IMG/VR virus record: IMGVR_UViG_3300029263_000263
Span: 1-21,427 of that record
Strand: one strand, 5' to 3'
DNA from: a virus
Length of the DNA stretch: 21,427 nucleotides
The position numbers were made by a program, and so were the translations under genes. Under the pieces are notes generated by a model, which was given only the letters and a program-made list of their open reading frames with translations, was not told the origin of the DNA and did not search any database. Shown here piece by piece: positions 8,560-20,850 of this stretch; the stretch's first letter is position 1, and each line of letters opens with the position of its first letter.

Positions 8560-8834
8560 TATTTAGATCTTCCTTCAGCAAAACCACGAAACGTAATTTC
8601 TTTTTTAACTTCTTTAGGTTTTTCTTCTAACATGCTTTGTTCTTCTGTAATACGATTGTGTATTTCAAAAGCGTCAAATATGCATAGTTTTTTTGTAGCC
8701 GCAGCGTTTTTAAGTCTGTCAGCTGATATATCTTCGCTTGAATCTATAATAGCTTCTTTAGCAACTTTAATTAGTTCCTCTACCGCTATGTGCCCAGCTT
8801 GGATTATATTCAACTTCGTTTCCTTCGTGTTCAT
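8559..8834 (-). CDS. Small protein upstream of terL, candidate small terminase subunit (91 aa)
   Basis: This helical, charged protein ends FRGFAEGRSK and its TAA overlaps the terL ATG. Residues 15-60 (HIAVEELIKVAKEAI, LKNAAATKKLCIFDAFEI) look like paired helices. The position immediately before terL is where small terminase subunits are usually encoded. The size is small for one, and I see no clear helix-turn-helix, so the role is inferred. Its ATG at 8834 lies 68 bases inside the 3' end of the preceding 205-residue gene in another frame. A TTG at codon 8 is an alternative start that would still overlap. Confidence 0.7.
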   Translation of the reverse strand: MNTKETKLNIIQAGHIAVEELIKVAKEAIIDSSEDISADRLKNAAATKKLCIFDAFEIHNRITEEQSMLEEKPKEVKKEITFRGFAEGRSK

Positions 8835-9384
8835 ACTTTATAACAATATCATTAGATTTCATACAATAAAGACGTTGATCGTCTATTACAAACTCCCATT
8901 CACCGTACGGTTTAAAACCTACAAGATCTCCAGGACTTATTTTAAGCGCTTCTAATGAGCTATTACCTATTTTTAATATACCAATAAGCTTTTGCTCTTT
9001 GTCAAGCGTTAGAGAATTATTATTTTTAAGTGGCGTTACAAAACATCTGTCTCCAAATGATATCCACTCTGTGTTTCTTTTATATAAATAAACTTGATCC
9101 ATTTGACAAAAATATAAATTATCTTTGAAAAAAGATCTACTTTTCTTTCTATTACCTTTCATGTCATAAAATGTTCTAAACACGTTATGATGTATAAGTA
9201 TTACATCTCCTTTTTTAATAGGAGTTTTATAAGCTTTAGGTATATCAACAACAATAGCCAGGTTATTAACTGATTTATAACTTTCTATTTTAGTATTAAG
9301 AACTAAAGATTTTTCACCTATTTTAACTTCGTTATCATACTCATCACCTAGTGGTTGTATGATAAAGTCAAACATACCTCTCAT
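8767..9384 (-). CDS. Tandem GroES-like (co-chaperonin-like) protein (205 aa)
   Basis: Two GroES-type segments can be seen. The first covers about residues 6-70: FIIQPLGDEYDNEV, then LAIVVDIP and IKKGDVILIHH. The second covers about 112-183: GDRCFVTPL, IGILKIG, ISPGDLVGFKPYGEWEFVID and LYCMKSNDIVIKY. Each matches the GroES order of N-terminal strand, G-x-V-x-x-hydrophobic-G, GD-x-V-x-F turn and a final D-I-hydrophobic strand. GroES proper is about 95 residues, so 205 fits a duplication. T4 gp31 shows that phage co-chaperonins can serve capsid folding, and this gene sits in the packaging/head operon. The function is inferred from sequence pattern. Mobile-loop sequence is not obvious, so a structural use of the fold is also possible. 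Confidence 0.6.
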   Translation of the reverse strand: MRGMFDFIIQPLGDEYDNEVKIGEKSLVLNTKIESYKSVNNLAIVVDIPKAYKTPIKKGDVILIHHNVFRTFYDMKGNRKKSRSFFKDNLYFCQMDQVYLYKRNTEWISFGDRCFVTPLKNNNSLTLDKEQKLIGILKIGNSSLEALKISPGDLVGFKPYGEWEFVIDDQRLYCMKSNDIVIKYEHEGNEVEYNPSWAHSGRGTN

Positions 9385-14539: not shown

Positions 14540-14995
14540 TTATTTATTACTTATTGTTTTATATTTTTCAACTCCACGTGATCCAAAATAGGCTACGTAG
14601 ACTGTGGTTACTAAAGTTTTTAGTAAACCTATCCATTCTTGTTCTACTGTAAAAGATATTTCATGGTGACTATCAACCCATATAAAAGCTACAGTCATTA
14701 CAGATAAGAATATCATACACATCGGACGAGTGTTCTTAGAAAGCCATGAATCAGATTTCATATCGCTTTCCCAACGTTTTGTTATTTCTCTCATCTCTGT
14801 CATATCTTGTTCTAATAACATTAATGCTTTTTCTTTATCCTCTGCAGGTAGCACAGGATCTTTTTTTATTAAATTCTTTACTAAACCAAAAACTCCAGCG
14901 TCAGGCAATATATCACCAGCTAGATCTAATATACTAGGAGCAGCTTTACTTAAAAACTTTCCTACTTTAGTTTGGTTAAATTTTTTTTTACTCAT
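14540..14995 (-). CDS. Holin, GTA 3TM type (151 aa)
   Basis: The segment RWESDMKSDSWLSKNTRP (residues 74-91) closely matches the signature preceding the membrane region in the family described as holin of 3TMs for gene-transfer-agent release. Hydrophobic segments follow at about 92-107 (MCMIFLSVMTVAFIWV) and 121-138 (WIGLLKTLVTTVYVAYFG), ending in SRGVEKY, also family-like. The N-terminal 70 residues are amphipathic (SILDLAGDILPDAG, then a Lys/Glu helix). Holins make inner-membrane holes that release the endolysin. The gene overlaps the upstream metallopeptidase-like gene by TAATG, which suggests a two-gene lysis unit. Confidence 0.8.
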   Translation of the reverse strand: MSKKKFNQTKVGKFLSKAAPSILDLAGDILPDAGVFGLVKNLIKKDPVLPAEDKEKALMLLEQDMTEMREITKRWESDMKSDSWLSKNTRPMCMIFLSVMTVAFIWVDSHHEISFTVEQEWIGLLKTLVTTVYVAYFGSRGVEKYKTISNK

Positions 14996-15303
14996 TATCC
15001 TTTTTTATATGCTTCAGCTTCCCATGGTAGGTTTTTAGCACCTTCTTCCATTTTAGCTCTTGAGTATTTTTTTCCTTTCCAATAAACATTGTCATCATCA
15101 TAATCTAAATCACCTCTTTCCATTTGATCTAAATGTACTTTTTCATGAGATACCACATCGTCTACTTGACTTGGATCTAAGTCTTTGTTTATAACAATAG
15201 AACCATTATTATTAGCTTTACCCATAACACCTTCTTCCATGTCTACTCTATATATAGGAGTGTTATCATAATCGTAAGGAGGGTTGTTTAATTTGAAAGC
15301 CAT
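14995..15303 (-). CDS. Putative HExxH zinc metallopeptidase (102 aa)
   Basis: Residues 52-57 read SHEKVH, an HExxH zinc-binding motif (His53, Glu54, His57). Downstream, NLPWEAEAYK carries Glu95 and Glu97, one of which could be a third zinc ligand. Small phage proteins of this layout (HExxH, then WKGKKY, then PWE-x-EA) recur in marine phages, from memory. The gene precedes the holin with a TAATG overlap, so a cell-wall endopeptidase role in lysis is plausible, but processing of virion proteins is equally possible. No signal peptide is seen. The N-terminus MAFKLNNPPY resembles MGFKIKPFYS of the 79-residue protein at 17600-17839. Confidence 0.65.
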   Translation of the reverse strand: MAFKLNNPPYDYDNTPIYRVDMEEGVMGKANNNGSIVINKDLDPSQVDDVVSHEKVHLDQMERGDLDYDDDNVYWKGKKYSRAKMEEGAKNLPWEAEAYKKG

Positions 15304-15466: not shown

Positions 15467-15892
15467 TTACGGTGTGAATATAGCCGATACAAATGTGCTT
15501 CTAACAGCTGGTGCTGTTACAACTATATTACCTTGTGGTCCTCTACCGTTTGAAGTTCCACCGCCTTGAGCTAATGGTGCTTGAGCAGTTGTTAAAGGTG
15601 GTACTACCGTAGATACTACTCCTCCTGGATTAGCTGTTAAAGCTGCACTGAATGAAGCTAGCATATCAGCTTGTCTTGTAGCTACAGTAGCAGGTGCTAC
15701 TATAGGTGCTGATACGACAACAGTATATAAAGAAGTCGCGCTAGTGTCAGTCGTAATTACTAATGTTGTAATTGCAGCTGCTGCGGCTCCAGTGTTTGTT
15801 GCTACCATTCCGCCAATGTGCGAAATTGGAATTAATGTTTCTCCAACGACTCCTGCCGCTGATGTTGTTGGTACTTTTAAAAATTGTGCCAT
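15467..15892 (-). CDS. Ala/Thr/Val-rich virion-like protein (141 aa)
   Basis: The gene starts at 15890-15892 (MAQFLKVPTTSAAGVVGETL) and ends VRSTFVSAIFTP. It is almost free of charged residues and is rich in Ala, Thr, Val and Gly, the composition of a beta-structured, secreted or virion surface protein. There is a Gly/Gln-rich linker around 109-121 (QGGGTSNGRGPQG). No family is recognised. A tandem hexamer repeat sits immediately upstream of its start. Its place among small virion-like genes suggests a minor capsid or tail component, but this is inference. Confidence 0.7.
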   Translation of the reverse strand: MAQFLKVPTTSAAGVVGETLIPISHIGGMVATNTGAAAAAITTLVITTDTSATSLYTVVVSAPIVAPATVATRQADMLASFSAALTANPGGVVSTVVPPLTTAQAPLAQGGGTSNGRGPQGNIVVTAPAVRSTFVSAIFTP

Positions 15893-15897
15893 TTTTT

Positions 15898-15930
15898 GTT
15901 AGTGTTAGTGTTAGTGTTAGTGTTAGTGTT
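15898..15930 (-). repeat. Tandem hexamer repeat, 5.5 copies, in the 5' leader
   Basis: Five perfect copies of GTTAGT (plus-strand sense; CACTAA-type on the coding strand) and half of a sixth fill the leader of the 141-residue gene, ending 5 bases before its start codon. The array is unlike the surrounding AT-rich sequence. It could vary in copy number by slippage and change leader length, or supply an unstructured C/A-rich initiation region. Confidence 0.9.
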
Positions 15931-15959
15931 TGGCTGAGGTTTGTACAGTCCTCTCTGTT

Positions 15960-16379
15960 TTACATATAGTCTTTTTTAGATTTTGAATCATCGCCTTTTT
16001 TACCGCCATACATTTTAGCAGGAGATTCATAATCTTTTTTTGATTTGCTGTCGTCTCCTTTTTTGCCGCCATACATCATAGCTGGAGATTCTGGTGCAGC
16101 TTCAATTTTAGACTTTAAAGCCTCTGGTAAATTTGCTTGTTTTCCAACTAATTCTTTTTCCATTGGAGAGTCTTTCATCATAGCTGGTGATTTGTCATAC
16201 ATCTTAGCTGGTGATCCACCAATTCTAGATTGTGAATGTTTAGACATCCAAGATCCACCGCTAGCTCTAGAAGCTATAGGATTATCATTCATTAGGTTTT
16301 TTCTTTCTTGTTTTGGTGATTCCATTTTCATAGGAGCGTTACCTTTAGTAGCTCTCATGTCTTGTTTGTAGTTTGGCAT
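15960..16379 (-). CDS. SP-motif small protein with C-terminal tandem duplication (139 aa)
   Basis: I choose the ATG at 16377-16379 (MPNYKQDMRATKGN), because the longer start at 16436 overlaps the preceding gene by 26 bases. The protein is Lys/Ser/Met-rich and looks disordered. Six Ser-Pro motifs occur: ESPKQE (20-25), GSPAKM (55-60), KSPAMM (63-68), DSPMEK (70-75), ESPAMM (97-102) and ESPAKM (118-123). Residues 97-117 and 118-138 are near-perfect 21-residue copies. No enzymatic domain is visible. It is the strongest member of the SP-motif cluster at 15960-18616. Function unknown; a virion-associated or assembly-tag role is speculation. Confidence 0.75.
   Translation of the reverse strand: MPNYKQDMRATKGNAPMKMESPKQERKNLMNDNPIASRASGGSWMSKHSQSRIGGSPAKMYDKSPAMMKDSPMEKELVGKQANLPEALKSKIEAAPESPAMMYGGKKGDDSKSKKDYESPAKMYGGKKGDDSKSKKDYM
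15966..16091 (-). repeat. In-frame 63-base tandem duplication, two copies
   Basis: Copy 1 is 16029-16091 and copy 2 is 15966-16028, both coding for the 21-residue SP unit. Comparing codons, eight differ silently (Asp, Ser, Ser, Asp, Asp, Gly, Gly, Pro) and only one changes an amino acid (Met to Lys at unit position 5). The duplication is therefore old enough to diverge at silent sites while the peptide was kept. Confidence 0.9.
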
Positions 16380-16410
16380 AGTGTTTATTTTTTGAATTTT
16401 ATATTGTTTC

Positions 16411-16962
16411 TTAGTTTGGTAAAGGTGATTTAGCAATTTTATTACCTAGCTGCTCTTTTGTTTTCTTGTATTTTTTAATTTTTCTTGTTTCTCTTTTGCT
16501 AGCAGGCTTATCTGCAGTCCTTACTTTATCTGTTGTTTTATCGTCAGGATCACCAAGATATACATCTTTTACGCTACTTCTTTTAGTTTGCATTTTAGAG
16601 ATTTGCTTAAGCGTCTTATTAGCTTTTTTAATTTTTCTTCCTGTTCCGTCATCTTTTCCAAGACCAAAATACTTTGCTTCTTGATTAAAGGGTGAAGTCA
16701 TTTTAGCAGGAGAACCGTGATTTTTCTCATCATATTTTAAATCACCCGCTAGTTTAGAGATATGTTTTTCATCACTAGTCATGCTAGAATCGCTATAACC
16801 ATGTTTGTTATCATAATCAATATCTTTTTTTAGATATTCCATATGAGCTTCGTCATCTTTTTTTGTAGCTTTATAATTTCCTTCTGTGACTTTTGTATCT
16901 GCGTGATCTTTTGACCACTTAGCGTTACCGCTATATTCTCCGTAATGTCCTTTGTGTCCCAT
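16411..16962 (-). CDS. SP-motif basic protein (183 aa)
   Basis: The protein starts MGHKGHYGEYSGNAKWSKDH, is strongly charged and probably partly disordered. The first half has a helical segment (KKDDEAHMEYLKKDIDYDN, then SDEKHISKLAGDLKYDEK). Residues 83-91 hold GSPAKMTSP, with PFNQEAKYFGLG following, and the C-terminus is AKSPLPN, giving three Ser-Pro-hydrophobic motifs. The second half is very basic (KIKKANKTLKQISKMQTKRS, KRETRKIKKYKKTKEQ). Similar proteins beginning GHKGHYGE appear, from memory, in uncultured marine phages. Function unknown; the basic half could bind DNA or acidic capsid surfaces. Confidence 0.75.
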   Translation of the reverse strand: MGHKGHYGEYSGNAKWSKDHADTKVTEGNYKATKKDDEAHMEYLKKDIDYDNKHGYSDSSMTSDEKHISKLAGDLKYDEKNHGSPAKMTSPFNQEAKYFGLGKDDGTGRKIKKANKTLKQISKMQTKRSSVKDVYLGDPDDKTTDKVRTADKPASKRETRKIKKYKKTKEQLGNKIAKSPLPN

Positions 16963-16972
16963 AATTTTTATT

Positions 16973-17365
16973 TTATAATCCTAATTGGTCTTTTTTAGCT
17001 TTTATTAAAGCTTCAGTTGGATTTGTTTGTGAGTTAAACCAATTACTATAATCTTTTTGAGCTTGCTCTTTATTTGTTAGTTTTGTAGTTGCGTCATCTT
17101 TTTTAGCGTCAACTTTTTTAGATCTAATATCAAATTTATCTAATCTATCTTTACTTGCCTCTTTATCTGTTAAAATAATTCTTCTATCTTCTCTTCTTTG
17201 TATTCTTTTTGATAAACGTTTTTCTTGTTTTTCAGCAGTGTCAGATGCCATTACTTTTTCAGCCGCTGCTTGTATATCACTTTGTAATTTTTGAAAAGCT
17301 GGTTGATCAGATAAATAAACTTCACCTCTAGGATTTTCGTAAGAATTTAAAGGAGATTTATTAAT
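16973..17365 (-). CDS. SP-motif basic coiled-coil protein, probable ATT start (130 aa)
   Basis: The first ATG in frame is at 17249-17251, but the frame stays open upstream for 38 more sensible residues (NKSPLNSYENPRGEVYLSDQ and onward). An ATT codon at 17363-17365 overlaps the previous stop as TAATT, exactly where TAATG overlaps occur elsewhere in this operon. With that start the protein is 130 residues, with the SP motif at positions 4-6, like its neighbours. The rest is helical and very charged (EKRLSKRIQRREDRR, KKVDAKKDDATTKLTN). Alternatively a -1 slip on the A10 tract at 17371-17380 would fuse the previous gene to this frame. The short ATG version (92 residues) remains possible. Confidence 0.6.
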   Translation of the reverse strand: MNKSPLNSYENPRGEVYLSDQPAFQKLQSDIQAAAEKVMASDTAEKQEKRLSKRIQRREDRRIILTDKEASKDRLDKFDIRSKKVDAKKDDATTKLTNKEQAQKDYSNWFNSQTNPTEALIKAKKDQLGL

Positions 17366-17595
17366 TAAGCTTTTTTTTTTGATTTATAATCTTTAGCTTC
17401 ATAATCAACACCGCCTTGTCCTTCAACATTGTCATAATCTGGGCTTTCATAGTCTGTTCCACCTTGACCTTCAACACCTATTGATGCTGGTTTTGAAGAT
17501 GATGCTGATATACTGCTCTTAAGATCTTTGTCGTTTAATTTTATTGTTTTCATAGGATCTTTACTCATGAAAGCTTTTTGAAATGGTGAACTCAT
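17365..17595 (-). CDS. SP-motif small protein with acidic repeats (76 aa)
   Basis: The protein begins MSSPFQKAFMSKDPMKTIKL, with the SPF motif at its N-terminus. A Ser-rich linker follows (SSISASSSKPAS), then two 16-residue repeats: VEGQGGTDYESPDYDN (41-56) and VEGQGGVDYEAKDYKS (57-72). It ends KKKA on an A10 run and TAA. The repeats at 17428-17475 and 17380-17427 differ by four silent codons and one replacement over their first ten codons. Tyr/Asp/Gly richness suggests a flexible binding tail. Function unknown. The A10 run at its end could permit frameshifting into the next gene. Confidence 0.75.
   Translation of the reverse strand: MSSPFQKAFMSKDPMKTIKLNDKDLKSSISASSSKPASIGVEGQGGTDYESPDYDNVEGQGGVDYEAKDYKSKKKA
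17371..17380 (-). other. A10 homopolymer, candidate slippery site
   Basis: Ten consecutive A residues (coding strand) end the 76-residue gene as TCA AAA AAA AAA GCT TAA. A -1 shift on this run reads AGC TTA ATT AAT AAA and continues into the following open frame, giving a predicted 207-residue fusion. Transcriptional or ribosomal slippage is known on runs of this length. Whether it happens here is untested, and homopolymers are also a common place for sequencing errors. Confidence 0.5.
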
Positions 17596-17599
17596 GTTA

Positions 17600-17839
17600 T
17601 TATGATTTTTTAGGTTTGTATGCTGCTATTTGTTCGTTAAGTCTTGAAAGTTGATCAGATTTATTGTCCCAATTAGTTACTTTACCTGTTTTTTTACTTT
17701 CAGCTCTCATAGCTGCTATTTCTTGTTTAAGCTTTGCCGCTTGTTCTTTCATTGCCATTAACTTAGCGTCTTCCATATGTAAAGGACTACTATTATGTAA
17801 CGGTGATCCACTGTAAAAAGGTTTTATTTTAAATCCCAT
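17600..17839 (-). CDS. SP-motif small coiled-coil protein (79 aa)
   Basis: I choose the ATG at 17837-17839 (MGFKIKPFYSGSPLHNSSPL), since a longer start at 17857 would overlap the previous gene by 16 bases. Two SPLH motifs occur at residues 12-15 and 18-21. Residues about 23-52 form a charged helix (EDAKLMAMKEQAAKLKQEIA), and a second helix lies near 60-74. The N-terminal MGFKIK resembles MAFKLN of the HExxH protein. No domain is recognised. It is a member of the SP cluster. Confidence 0.75.
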   Translation of the reverse strand: MGFKIKPFYSGSPLHNSSPLHMEDAKLMAMKEQAAKLKQEIAAMRAESKKTGKVTNWDNKSDQLSRLNEQIAAYKPKKS

Positions 17840-17841
17840 AG

Positions 17842-18042
17842 TTATTTGTTTTTGCAACCGAAGTTGTTTGCGTAGTTTGCCATTTTAACAACATCCTCGC
17901 TATAGTTATCTTTTTTAGACATTACAGAGCTAGCTGCCGAGCAAGCGTCCTTAAAGCCGTTCTTTTTAGCCCAAGCAGTAAATTTACCTTTGTTCTCTGG
18001 TTTTATTTTAGGAAAACCTTTTTTATAAAATGGTGAATTCAT
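17842..18042 (-). CDS. SP-motif protein of the G-x-F-T-x-x-A-K small phage family (66 aa)
   Basis: It starts MNSPFYKKGFPKIKPENKGK, with an SPF motif at residues 3-5. The core KGKFTAWAKKNGFKD, later DNYSEDVVKMANYANNFG, matches a pattern remembered from small proteins of many phages and some large viruses (G-F-T-A-K-A-K...G...A...N...Y...A-N-F-A-x-N). The function of that family is unknown to me; its basic helical character suggests a virion or DNA-associated protein. Two cysteines (CSAAS and FGCKNK) are present. The ATG overlaps the stop of the preceding gene as TAATG. Confidence 0.75.
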   Translation of the reverse strand: MNSPFYKKGFPKIKPENKGKFTAWAKKNGFKDACSAASSVMSKKDNYSEDVVKMANYANNFGCKNK

Positions 18043-18245
18043 TATTTATAAACTTTAGCTATTTGGGTTATTGGTCCTGCTATGTATTTAGTTGGATATT
18101 TAGACAATTCCATACCTGTAATACCTGAACTTGATCCACTACCCATTGGAAAACCTACTTTGCTTAATGGTCCGTCCCATACTGCATTTTCTCCAACTTG
18201 ACCGCTTAATTGTGGGTTTTTAATTATTGCTTTATCTTTATTCAT
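18042..18245 (-). CDS. Small Gly/Ser-rich protein (67 aa)
   Basis: The sequence starts MNKDKAIIKNPQLSGQVGEN and includes WDGPLSKVGFPMGSGSSSG. The GPLSKVGFP segment resembles SPFYKKGFP of the next gene, so it may be a divergent form of the SP motif with Gly replacing Ser. The C-terminus (KYIAGPITQIAKVYK) is moderately hydrophobic. No family is recognised. It lies 14 bases after the 118-residue gene, and its TAA overlaps the next start as TAATG, supporting co-translation. Confidence 0.7.
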   Translation of the reverse strand: MNKDKAIIKNPQLSGQVGENAVWDGPLSKVGFPMGSGSSSGITGMELSKYPTKYIAGPITQIAKVYK

Positions 18246-18259
18246 AATTATTTATTTAT

Positions 18260-18616
18260 TTATTTTCTTCTTGCTATTCTTTTCATCATGTTTAGTCCAG
18301 AACTTCCCGCTGTGACATATGAGTCTTCTTGTAATTCTTGAACAGCTCCAGGAACTGATCCCATATCTTGGTCAGCCATGCTAGGAGTTTCTATACCTTG
18401 AGCATCAGCAGCGTTATCTAATACTGGATTATCTAGTCCTTCTTCAACAGGAACAGCTTCTTGTGCAGAACTAGAAGCAAGGTCTATTTTTTCTTCAATA
18501 CTACCTAGTCTTTTGTTTATTTTTTTAAGAGTTTTTGAAGTTTTCTTTCTACCTCTTTGACCTATTAAAGCTCCAGCTATAGCACCTCCTAAAAAATTTA
18601 TTGGACTTTTACTCAT
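18260..18616 (-). CDS. SP-motif protein with Gly-zipper segment (118 aa)
   Basis: It begins MSKSPINFLGGAIAGALIGQ, so the SP motif at residues 4-6 runs directly into a Gly-spaced hydrophobic stretch (about 7-19), followed by basic RGRKKTSKTLKKINKRLG. This could be a short membrane-inserting or helix-packing segment, too short and weak for a confident transmembrane call. The second half is acidic and Gln/Ala-rich (SAQEAVPVEEGLDNPVLDNA) and looks disordered. The ATG overlaps the preceding TGA as ATGA. Function unknown. Confidence 0.75.
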   Translation of the reverse strand: MSKSPINFLGGAIAGALIGQRGRKKTSKTLKKINKRLGSIEEKIDLASSSAQEAVPVEEGLDNPVLDNAADAQGIETPSMADQDMGSVPGAVQELQEDSYVTAGSSGLNMMKRIARRK

Positions 18617-19059
18617 CTTTGTTTGTCTTTATTTACATTATATATAGCTTGTGTCATTACTTTGTCTGTGTATGTTTCACCAGCTATTAGTTTATTTCTT
18701 CTATTACTTGTTGGTATATCATCTTTACCTAACATGATTCGATACACTCTACTTATAAGTTGCTTACACTTAAATGAAACTTTATATATATTATACTTTT
18801 GTGTGGTTCTATTTCTGTTTCGCCACACGACTATCCAGTCGTTTTTAAGTAATTTGTTCCAGCGTCTATTATCCCAACTATAAGAATATGTACCTTTTTC
18901 AAAATCATGCTTAGTAAAAAGATCAATGCAATCTAAGTATATTAATAACTCTAAATCTGCATCGTTTAAATTGTTGTTTTTACAAGCCCATTTACGAATT
19001 ATTCGATAATGTTTTAATAAGTTTAGATTTTTTAAGTCTAAAGCTTCTAGCTTTTTCAT
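18613..19059 (-). CDS. Possible winged-helix protein (148 aa)
   Basis: Residues about 34-50 (LNDADLELLIYLDCIDLFTK) form a helix pair, followed by KLLKNDWIVVWRNRNRTTQKYNIYKVS. That second segment reads as a recognition helix and wing, as in MarR- or PadR-like winged helices. The C-terminal part is basic and helical. The protein is joined to GroES by an ATGA overlap and to the next gene by another, so it belongs to one operon. A DNA-binding regulator of late genes is plausible, but the fold call is made by eye and it could be another small structural protein. Confidence 0.55.
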   Translation of the reverse strand: MKKLEALDLKNLNLLKHYRIIRKWACKNNNLNDADLELLIYLDCIDLFTKHDFEKGTYSYSWDNRRWNKLLKNDWIVVWRNRNRTTQKYNIYKVSFKCKQLISRVYRIMLGKDDIPTSNRRNKLIAGETYTDKVMTQAIYNVNKDKQR

Positions 19060-19316
19060 AAAACAACAACCACGTCTTGTAATTTAATAACGTGATATGT
19101 ATTTTCTTTTATTTCTATTTTGTGGCCAGCGTGTCTATCAAAGAATATTTCGTCATCTTTTTTTAAACTTGGCACTTCTTCACCTACTGATATAATACTA
19201 GCTTTAGTATATCTTATATCTTCTCTTTGATTTTCAGCAAGAAGTAAACCACCTTTTGTTTTAGTAGTACCTTCTTTTGTTTTTTGAATTATTAAATTTC
19301 TACCTATTGCTTTCAT
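19056..19316 (-). CDS. groES: Phage GroES co-chaperonin (86 aa)
   Basis: The order of GroES features is present: an N-terminal strand (RNLIIQK), the mobile-loop region with KGGLLL, a central SIISVGEEVPSLKKDDEIFF segment, and a last strand IKLQDVVVVL. The dome-like part is short; the usual GroES length is about 95. It forms the heptameric lid on GroEL. Its ATG lies 17 bases inside the groEL 3' end in another frame, giving the unusual order groEL then groES. The KDDEIFF stretch replaces the usual GD-x-V-x-F. The TGA stop overlaps the next ATG. Confidence 0.88.
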   Translation of the reverse strand: MKAIGRNLIIQKTKEGTTKTKGGLLLAENQREDIRYTKASIISVGEEVPSLKKDDEIFFDRHAGHKIEIKENTYHVIKLQDVVVVL

Positions 19317-20850
19317 CTATCCTTAAATTATTGATTACACAATCGGTTGATAAGATAGTAGTTGCCACTGAAGCTGCGTTCTGAAGTGCGCTTTTTGTAA
19401 CTAACAATGGATCTATAATACCACTGTTAATCATATTGACCATATTTCCTGTAACCACATTTAGTCCTTGTCCTTTTCTTTTAAGCTCAGGATAATCAAC
19501 AATGCCAGCATTTTCTAATATAACATTAAATGGAGCTTTAATTGCATCTAGTAAAACTTGTTCACCTTCAGTCCTTGCTTTAACAAAAGTAGCAGCGTTA
19601 AGCAAAGCTATACCACCACCTGGAACTATACCTTCTTTTATCGCAGCCTTAGTAGCACAAATAGCGTCTTCAACCCTATCTGTTTTTTCTTTAAGTTCAA
19701 TATCAGAATTAGCGCCAACTTTAACTATAGCTATTTTAGCAGCTAATCTTGCTAATCTTTTTTCTAGCTTAATAACTTCGTGAGAAGCTTTATCTTCTTT
19801 TAATTCTTCTTTAATGCTTTTAATAATTTCTTTAACCTCATCAGATGTTTCTTCAACCTGAAGAATAGTTTCTAAATGAGTAGTAGTACTTTTTAAACAT
19901 GTACCTAAATGATCTGCGCTTATAAGATTCGTATCATCGCCTAAGTCTTCGTTTATTATAGTAGCACCTGTGAGCAAAGATAAGTCATCTAAAGTATCTT
20001 TTTTGCTTACCCCATATGTTGGAGCATCAATAACATTTACTTTTATATTACCTTTCATTTTATTCATAGCAAGAGCGCTTATCACTGACTCATCTAAATC
20101 ACCTATAATCAATAAAGGTTTATTGCCTTTTATCACATACTCTAAAACAGATTGTATTTGTCTTATTGTAGTTATTGGTGATTCAATTAATAAAACTAAA
20201 GGTTCCTCTAGTTCTACTGATTTATTTGCTTTATTAGTTATAAAATGAGAGTTCTTAAGACCTTTGTCATATTGAACTCCTTCAACTACTTCTATTTCAG
20301 TTTTACTAAACTGAGTTGGCTCCATCATAACAACACCTGTTTCGCCAACTGCTCTAAACGCGTCACCTATTATTTTACCTAAGTTTTTATCATTGTTAGT
20401 AGAGATAGTGGCTACATTGTCTATCATGTCTCCTTTTACATCTACTGCTGATTTTTCTAGGTTTTTAATTACTTTTGCAACAGCGTTATTAATACCGTCT
20501 TTTAATTCTCTTGAATTAATATTTACTTTATAAGCCTCTTGTAAAATAGCATGAGCTAGAACAGTAGCTGTAGTTGTACCATCGCCTGCTTCTTGTACTG
20601 TTTTTCTTGCTGCTTCTTTTATAAGTGTAGCGCCCATGTTTTCAACAGGATCTCTAAGAACTATAGAGTTTGCCACAGTTACACCATCTTTTGTTATAAC
20701 AGGATTACCCATCCCATCTTCAAGAAGAACACATTTACCGCTAGCCCCTAATGTGGAGCTAACAGCTTTTGTGAGTTTTTCTATTCCTTTAAATACATTA
20801 GCCTTGGCTTCTTCGCCAAAGTTAAGGTTCTTGACAATTGCGTCATTCAT
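19300..20850 (-). CDS. groEL: Phage GroEL chaperonin (516 aa)
   Basis: Chaperonin motifs are clear: VITKDGVTVA (Asp55), AGDGTTTATVLA (Asp90), EVVEGVQYDKG, PLLIIGD in the apical domain, RVEDAICAT (Asp395, equivalent to E. coli Asp398), GIVPGGGIAL and IDPLLVTKSALQNAASVA. All three ATPase aspartates are kept, so it should be active. At 516 residues it is shorter than bacterial GroEL (about 545) and lacks the C-terminal GGM tail. It starts at 20848-20850 after an AT-rich leader of tandem CTAAT/TTAAT-like repeats. It could fold phage capsid or fibre proteins. Host acquisition followed by divergence is likely but not tested here. Confidence 0.93.
   Translation of the reverse strand: MNDAIVKNLNFGEEAKANVFKGIEKLTKAVSSTLGASGKCVLLEDGMGNPVITKDGVTVANSIVLRDPVENMGATLIKEAARKTVQEAGDGTTTATVLAHAILQEAYKVNINSRELKDGINNAVAKVIKNLEKSAVDVKGDMIDNVATISTNNDKNLGKIIGDAFRAVGETGVVMMEPTQFSKTEIEVVEGVQYDKGLKNSHFITNKANKSVELEEPLVLLIESPITTIRQIQSVLEYVIKGNKPLLIIGDLDESVISALAMNKMKGNIKVNVIDAPTYGVSKKDTLDDLSLLTGATIINEDLGDDTNLISADHLGTCLKSTTTHLETILQVEETSDEVKEIIKSIKEELKEDKASHEVIKLEKRLARLAAKIAIVKVGANSDIELKEKTDRVEDAICATKAAIKEGIVPGGGIALLNAATFVKARTEGEQVLLDAIKAPFNVILENAGIVDYPELKRKGQGLNVVTGNMVNMINSGIIDPLLVTKSALQNAASVATTILSTDCVINNLRIDESNR

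Follow-up and report, generated by a model that had tools for sequence, protein, structure and literature searches.

Genomic setting of the cluster

The window, by which we mean the whole stretch of DNA analysed, spans 21,427 bases of a viral record (IMG/VR IMGVR_UViG_3300029263_000263) and carries eight small genes between positions 15960 and 18616, all on the minus strand. One flank of this cluster is a 148-aa gene (18613..19059, minus strand) lying behind groEL/groES (18613-20850). Its product is a homologue of gp78 from Cellulophaga phage phi38:1 (HMM E = 1.8e-20), and the gene anchors the synteny with virion genes detected by mass spectrometry (MS). On the other flank lie a 141-aa gene (15467..15892, minus strand), then an HExxH protein, the holin and the tail genes. 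The 141-aa protein is weakly similar to phi38:1 gp77 (phmmer 0.003 for relatives, HMM 0.052), whose counterpart in phage phi40:1, gp077, is among the MS-detected proteins. Short tandem CACTAA repeats fill part of the gap before the 141-aa gene (about 15893-15932). The window also holds two GroES-type genes, one encoding a 205-aa GroES-like protein (8767-9384) before the terminase and one an 86-aa protein (19056-19316) beside groEL.

The terminase of the window shares 61.8% identity with its counterpart in podovirus MW202828, the terminases of Flavobacterium phage elemo and of Cellulophaga and Tenacibaculum phages being more distant. Matches in genome bins are mostly to Bacteroidota MAGs, with some archaeal and gammaproteobacterial bins that are probably misbinned. 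Taken together, terminase relatives and bin matches suggest a lineage of marine viruses infecting Bacteroidota. Megablast of the window against phages returned no match, and Pfam and PHROGs searches with the eight small proteins gave nothing above noise.

A Ser-Pro motif in the small proteins

Most of the eight proteins carry Ser-Pro followed by a hydrophobic residue, in many cases close to the start, where we call it the tag. The first, a 118-aa late protein beginning MSKSPINF (18260..18616, minus strand), has the tag at residues 4-6 (18599-18607), and 12 of the 16 members of its family have SP-hydrophobic within the first 25 residues. The 66-aa protein (17842..18042, minus strand) joins an MNSPFYKKGF start, with the tag at 18028-18036, to a KGKFTA three-helix domain. 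The 79-aa protein MGFKIKPFYSGSPLHNSSPLHM (17600..17839, minus strand) bears two tags, at 17798-17806 and 17780-17788, and all six members of its family (6/6) are tagged.

The next two ORFs, judged by their relatives, are two halves of one gene, because three relatives encode both halves as a single protein with no break (L118:7696-8541, L005:3471-3962 and L200:3673-4104). The N-terminal half is the 76-aa ORF MSSPFQKAFMSK (17365..17595, minus strand), tagged at 17581-17589; the C-terminal half (16973..17377, minus strand) includes a 92-aa ORF starting at ATG 17251. NKSPLNSY (17348-17356) precedes this ATG, where the frame is still open and extends the 76-aa gene past a stretch of ten A (17371..17380, minus strand); it is at this stretch that the two halves fall out of frame. 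In the fused family 66 of 71 members are tagged. The break at 17371-17380 is compatible with an assembly error, a frameshift or programmed slippage.

The last two genes have no N-terminal tag. The charged 183-aa protein (16411..16962, minus strand) contains three SP motifs (SPAKMTSPF, KSPLPN), all internal or C-terminal, and the 139-aa protein (15960..16379, minus strand) is built of SPAKMYG-type repeats with five SP-hydrophobic motifs and one SPK. A preliminary description of the locus had counted the same three motifs in the former; in the latter it had counted six, of which five stand and the sixth is the SPK. Its statement that seven of the eight genes carry the motif holds for six with ordinary starts, the seventh being the NKSPLN that precedes the ATG of the 92-aa ORF.

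The remaining gene encodes an untagged neighbour of 67 aa (18042..18245, minus strand), in which GPLSKVGFP had been taken as a variant of SPFYKKGFP. Only 1 of 130 members of this family has SP-hydrophobic in the first 25 residues, and the family core is [IV]WDGPL...GSSSG...GPIT, so that the likeness is not one of homology and the protein is no carrier. The 271-aa protein also falls away as a carrier: its two motifs are internal, are conserved in 19 of 22 members, and belong to a family related to phi38:1 gp94 (HMM 8.2e-33).

The motif exceeds chance expectation

In the eight small proteins SP[FLIMAV] occurs 14 times, against 1.20 +/- 1.08 expected from composition-preserving shuffles, none of 5000 of which reached 14. 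The other 21 genes of the window show no excess in the same test (6 vs 4.7 expected, P = 0.33). For relatives, we pooled the late-strand genes of about 310 related IMG/VR loci, with ORFs called by a simple script and then clustered, and scored SP with F, L, I, M or V as the next residue within the first 25 residues. Among 400 patterns of two residues plus a hydrophobic one, SP-hydrophobic ranks first (family average 77 vs 37 for the next), and 12 of the 82 families that have at least four members are tagged in the majority of them. A common N-terminus may by itself pull genes into one family, and we therefore rebuilt the families from sequences stripped of their first 30 residues, using an enlarged set of 7,076 genes: the pattern still ranks first, with 86 family-equivalents vs 44 for the next. 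At residues 41-64 it drops to ninth.

Motif density is 1.1-2.1 per 100 positions over residues 2-15 and falls to mostly 0.1-0.3 beyond residue 25; the gene set was gathered partly with tagged queries, which inflates such absolute frequencies and does not explain the contrast between families. Large conserved late families (terminase, GroEL, GroES and holin) have essentially zero tags.

Conservation of the tag and of its module

Of the 57 members of the 66-aa family, 56 keep SP[FL] at the N-terminus, between flanks of varying sequence and length, as in MNSPFYKKGF, MYTSPLFKDF, MAYIQSPLLKKF and MGYAQYNSPFMQKDF. A second motif follows the first mostly after 10, 6 or 11 residues, and the module SPFQxxFxxKSP is found on 20 core families, in support of the earlier proposal that proteins with no other relationship share a short linear motif. 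For one mini-domain, a single phage (L101) has the tagged form and others the untagged one.

Such an N-terminal motif could be a by-product, either of a preference at translation starts or of a copied 5' gene segment, and the DNA of the module ATGAGTTCACCATTT is indeed nearly invariant in several genes. We consider this very improbable. A start preference is at odds with the untagged terminase, GroEL, holin and GroES families, and the tag also precedes domains inside proteins (NKSPLNSY). As for copying, the Ser codon of the motif switches between the TCN and AGY classes in the 66-aa family, and module copies share 65% of codons within one genome vs 71% across genomes; being as different within as between genomes, they are not explained by recent copying. 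The tag is a real N-terminal short linear motif of unrelated late proteins, under selection at the protein level.

AlphaFold2 models hint, if weakly, that the tag may be disordered in two unrelated families. The 66-aa protein has helices at 20-27, 33-42 and 49-63 and a pLDDT of 49 over its first ten residues; a second, unrelated tagged family also has low confidence at the tag, in a model that is poor throughout (mean pLDDT 55). We also considered genome-specific dialects of the tag and dropped them: tag types of different families at one locus are concordant 298 times vs 299 expected.

Tagged genes form an optional late set

In eight near-complete phages 42 of 378 late-strand genes are tagged vs 7 of 346 early-strand genes (Fisher 5e-7), several of the latter seven being short antisense ORFs. 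The tags form two groups: the first lies in the interval between groES and the lysis genes, the second follows a giant protein and closes the late operon. Compared with untagged families, those with the tag are more polar and less hydrophobic, and slightly more basic. The tagged proteins are an optional set whose number differs between phages: terminase-selected records have from zero to six tags per groES-lysis interval, and G009, whose terminase is 78% identical to that of the window, shares the core virion genes of tagged phages and has no tagged late protein. Among the records tested, tag-bearing phages have terminases at least 71% identical to the window's, and the cultured relatives elemo, phi38:1, phi19:3, Gundel and MW202828 have no cluster of N-terminal tags. 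We found no description of such a motif in phages in the literature searched.

Effectors directed at the host and never packaged could show the same optional presence. The motif would then bind some intracellular factor of the host or the phage, such as a chaperonin, a polymerase or a protease adaptor, and its carriers, optional and variable like effectors, would stay in the cytoplasm; in the window they do follow groEL/groES. This seems to us fairly unlikely, given that tagged genes lie on the late strand with the early strand nearly empty of N-terminal tags, and that the second group follows the giant structural gene, a long way from groEL. A chaperonin tag as such, one of the roles first suggested, is not supported: G009 and the elemo phages have groEL and no tags.

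The 67-aa family was tried as a partner of the tag and rejected. It is present in all eight tagged phages among nine complete ones (8/8) and absent from the ninth, G009; among TerL-selected records it occurs without tags, and tags occur without it.

Some of the records surveyed have features of their own. In G007:C1:47055-48727 and its homologues, tagged mini-domains (DUF6321, KVWPSAYASGW and GGGTTKTCLPKSKI) make up a second cluster among the late genes, following the giant structural gene; no Pfam or PHROG family covers the GGGTTKTCLPKSKI mini-domain. The 129,537-base record G012 contains GroEL twice (61810-63354 and 125692-127237) and TerL twice (55011-57215 and 118488-120694), the second copies being broken, and looks like a mixture of two related phages or an artefact of assembly. 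In G030:C1:7228-9437 TerL is in two parts with stops between, possibly owing to an intron or insertion.

Carrier domains and known virion proteins

The domain of the 66-aa protein is present in crassviruses, where it either stands free between portal and major capsid protein or forms part of the gene that follows the muzzle gene, which is the position of cargo protein C1. The 66-aa protein matches C1 of cr128_1 (tblastn 9e-6), which in turn matches residues 370-425 of PhicrAss001 gp45 at the same gene position (phmmer E 0.18), next to the portal-bound segment 425-552. In PhicrAss001, gp45 (C1) is carried in the virion as cargo (PMC10172136). The putative link of the domain to gp45, drawn through crass relatives, is borderline. 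Foldseek found no match of the domain to a solved structure, and a sequence search of the PDB no direct match. The likeness is confined to the KGKFTA domain: gp45 is large and portal-bound, whereas the window protein is a free domain with an SP tag that gp45 lacks, and the crass homologues are mostly without SP. On its sequence we do not file the 66-aa protein as C1, as it ends after the domain, with neither the portal-bound domain (gp45 425-552) nor the long N-terminal arm.

Other carriers resemble known mini-domains. DUF6321 (PF19846) is above cut-off on two tagged relatives (E 9e-11 and 5e-11), while none of the window's own proteins reaches its gathering score, and a DUF5872-like match is below cut-off (E 0.053). 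The Pfam domains differ from the carriers in that they exclude the tag.

Small virion proteins are known from the same interval in cultured phages. The phi40:1 proteins gp069, gp077 and gp080, annotated in their record as structural by MS/MS, surround the homologue of the 148-aa gene; like the carriers, the phi40:1/phi38:1 proteins are small and lie before the lysis genes and terminase, and gp069 and gp080 are Lys/Arg-rich. Unlike them, all three lack the tag, as do the gp080 homologues of the tagged lineage. Tagged proteins known from virions number none so far.

Placement of the carriers outside the capsid, as decoration, or in the tail would agree with our observations as well as placement inside, and small late proteins may be decoration proteins. 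Two indirect points nonetheless make it quite unlikely in our view: Lys/Arg-rich mini-domains (DUF6321-like, KVWPSAYASGW) are frequent among the carriers, and an internal crass cargo protein contains the 66-aa domain.

Comparison with the capsid-targeting sequence of T4

The internal proteins of T4 are a diverse, optional set in which the targeting peptide alone is conserved and sends them to the prohead core (PMC3012670, PMC5694885). The capsid-targeting sequence (CTS) of IPI-IPIII and Alt and the SP tag are alike as short conserved N-terminal peptides on diverse optional small phage proteins, and here too the peptide is common to unrelated proteins of one phage. They differ in sequence, the present one being SP[FL], often doubled 6, 10 or 11 residues apart; neither a T4-type cleavage motif nor a homologous protease came to light here, and the window yielded no prohead protease. 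We take the CTS as a working analogue of the SP tag and claim no homology.

The targeting peptides of T4 are also cleaved (PMC5694885), which raises the question of whether the SP motif is a recognition site for proteolysis, by a prohead protease or a neighbouring peptidase, that would activate or trim the tagged proteins. A candidate enzyme lies beside the cluster: the small HExxH (HEKVH) protein of 102 aa (14995-15303), weakly like DUF6782 metallopeptidases (E 0.0024), 12 of whose 162 relatives themselves start with an SP tag (e.g. MSFKLKSPF). Homologues of this peptidase are nevertheless found in phages with a tag-free interval (G042/L043), and repeats inside the 139-aa protein and an SP near the start leave little to cleave. 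We regard proteolysis as unlikely to be the function of the motif, although docking and cleavage can coexist.

Discussion

The preliminary description was right in its observation, and its interpretation is partly supported. Both conditions that it had named as refuting were checked and neither applies: the motif exceeds the frequency predicted by Ser/Pro composition, and relatives keep it at its N-terminal position. It had suggested that the motif is bound by one common partner, possibly in packaging. Of these, a packaging role is the best-supported reading, through gene position, the late strand, the MS-annotated phi40:1 proteins and the cargo-protein homologue; binding, the partner, packaging and ejection of tagged proteins are what we infer.

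We would put at about even chances that the tag is an N-terminal docking motif sorting small accessory proteins into the virion. Ser-Pro-[Phe/Leu/Ile/Val/Met] near the N-terminus, often as the module SPF-x-x-x-F-x-x-K-SPL, would then serve as a short linear docking motif on variable small late proteins, among them basic mini-domains and disordered charged proteins. By binding one late phage protein (scaffold, core, portal or inner capsid) during head or virion assembly, it would recruit its carriers into the particle, from which some would be ejected with the DNA. A bolder version, possible but less probable, is a portable virion-sorting code of marine Bacteroidota podoviruses, of non-T4 origin, in which SP[FL] alone would suffice for entry into the particle and, fused onto new domains by shuffling, would create an exchangeable injected set.

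Even if the motif is no packaging signal, dozens of protein families still bear it as a short linear motif that is conserved. If the sorting role is true, the shared N-terminal tag is a previously undescribed address label: sequence would then tell which of the many small proteins of abundant marine phages are taken into the virion, and perhaps reach the host cell as well, and the tag would be a short peptide to try for loading other proteins into phage heads.
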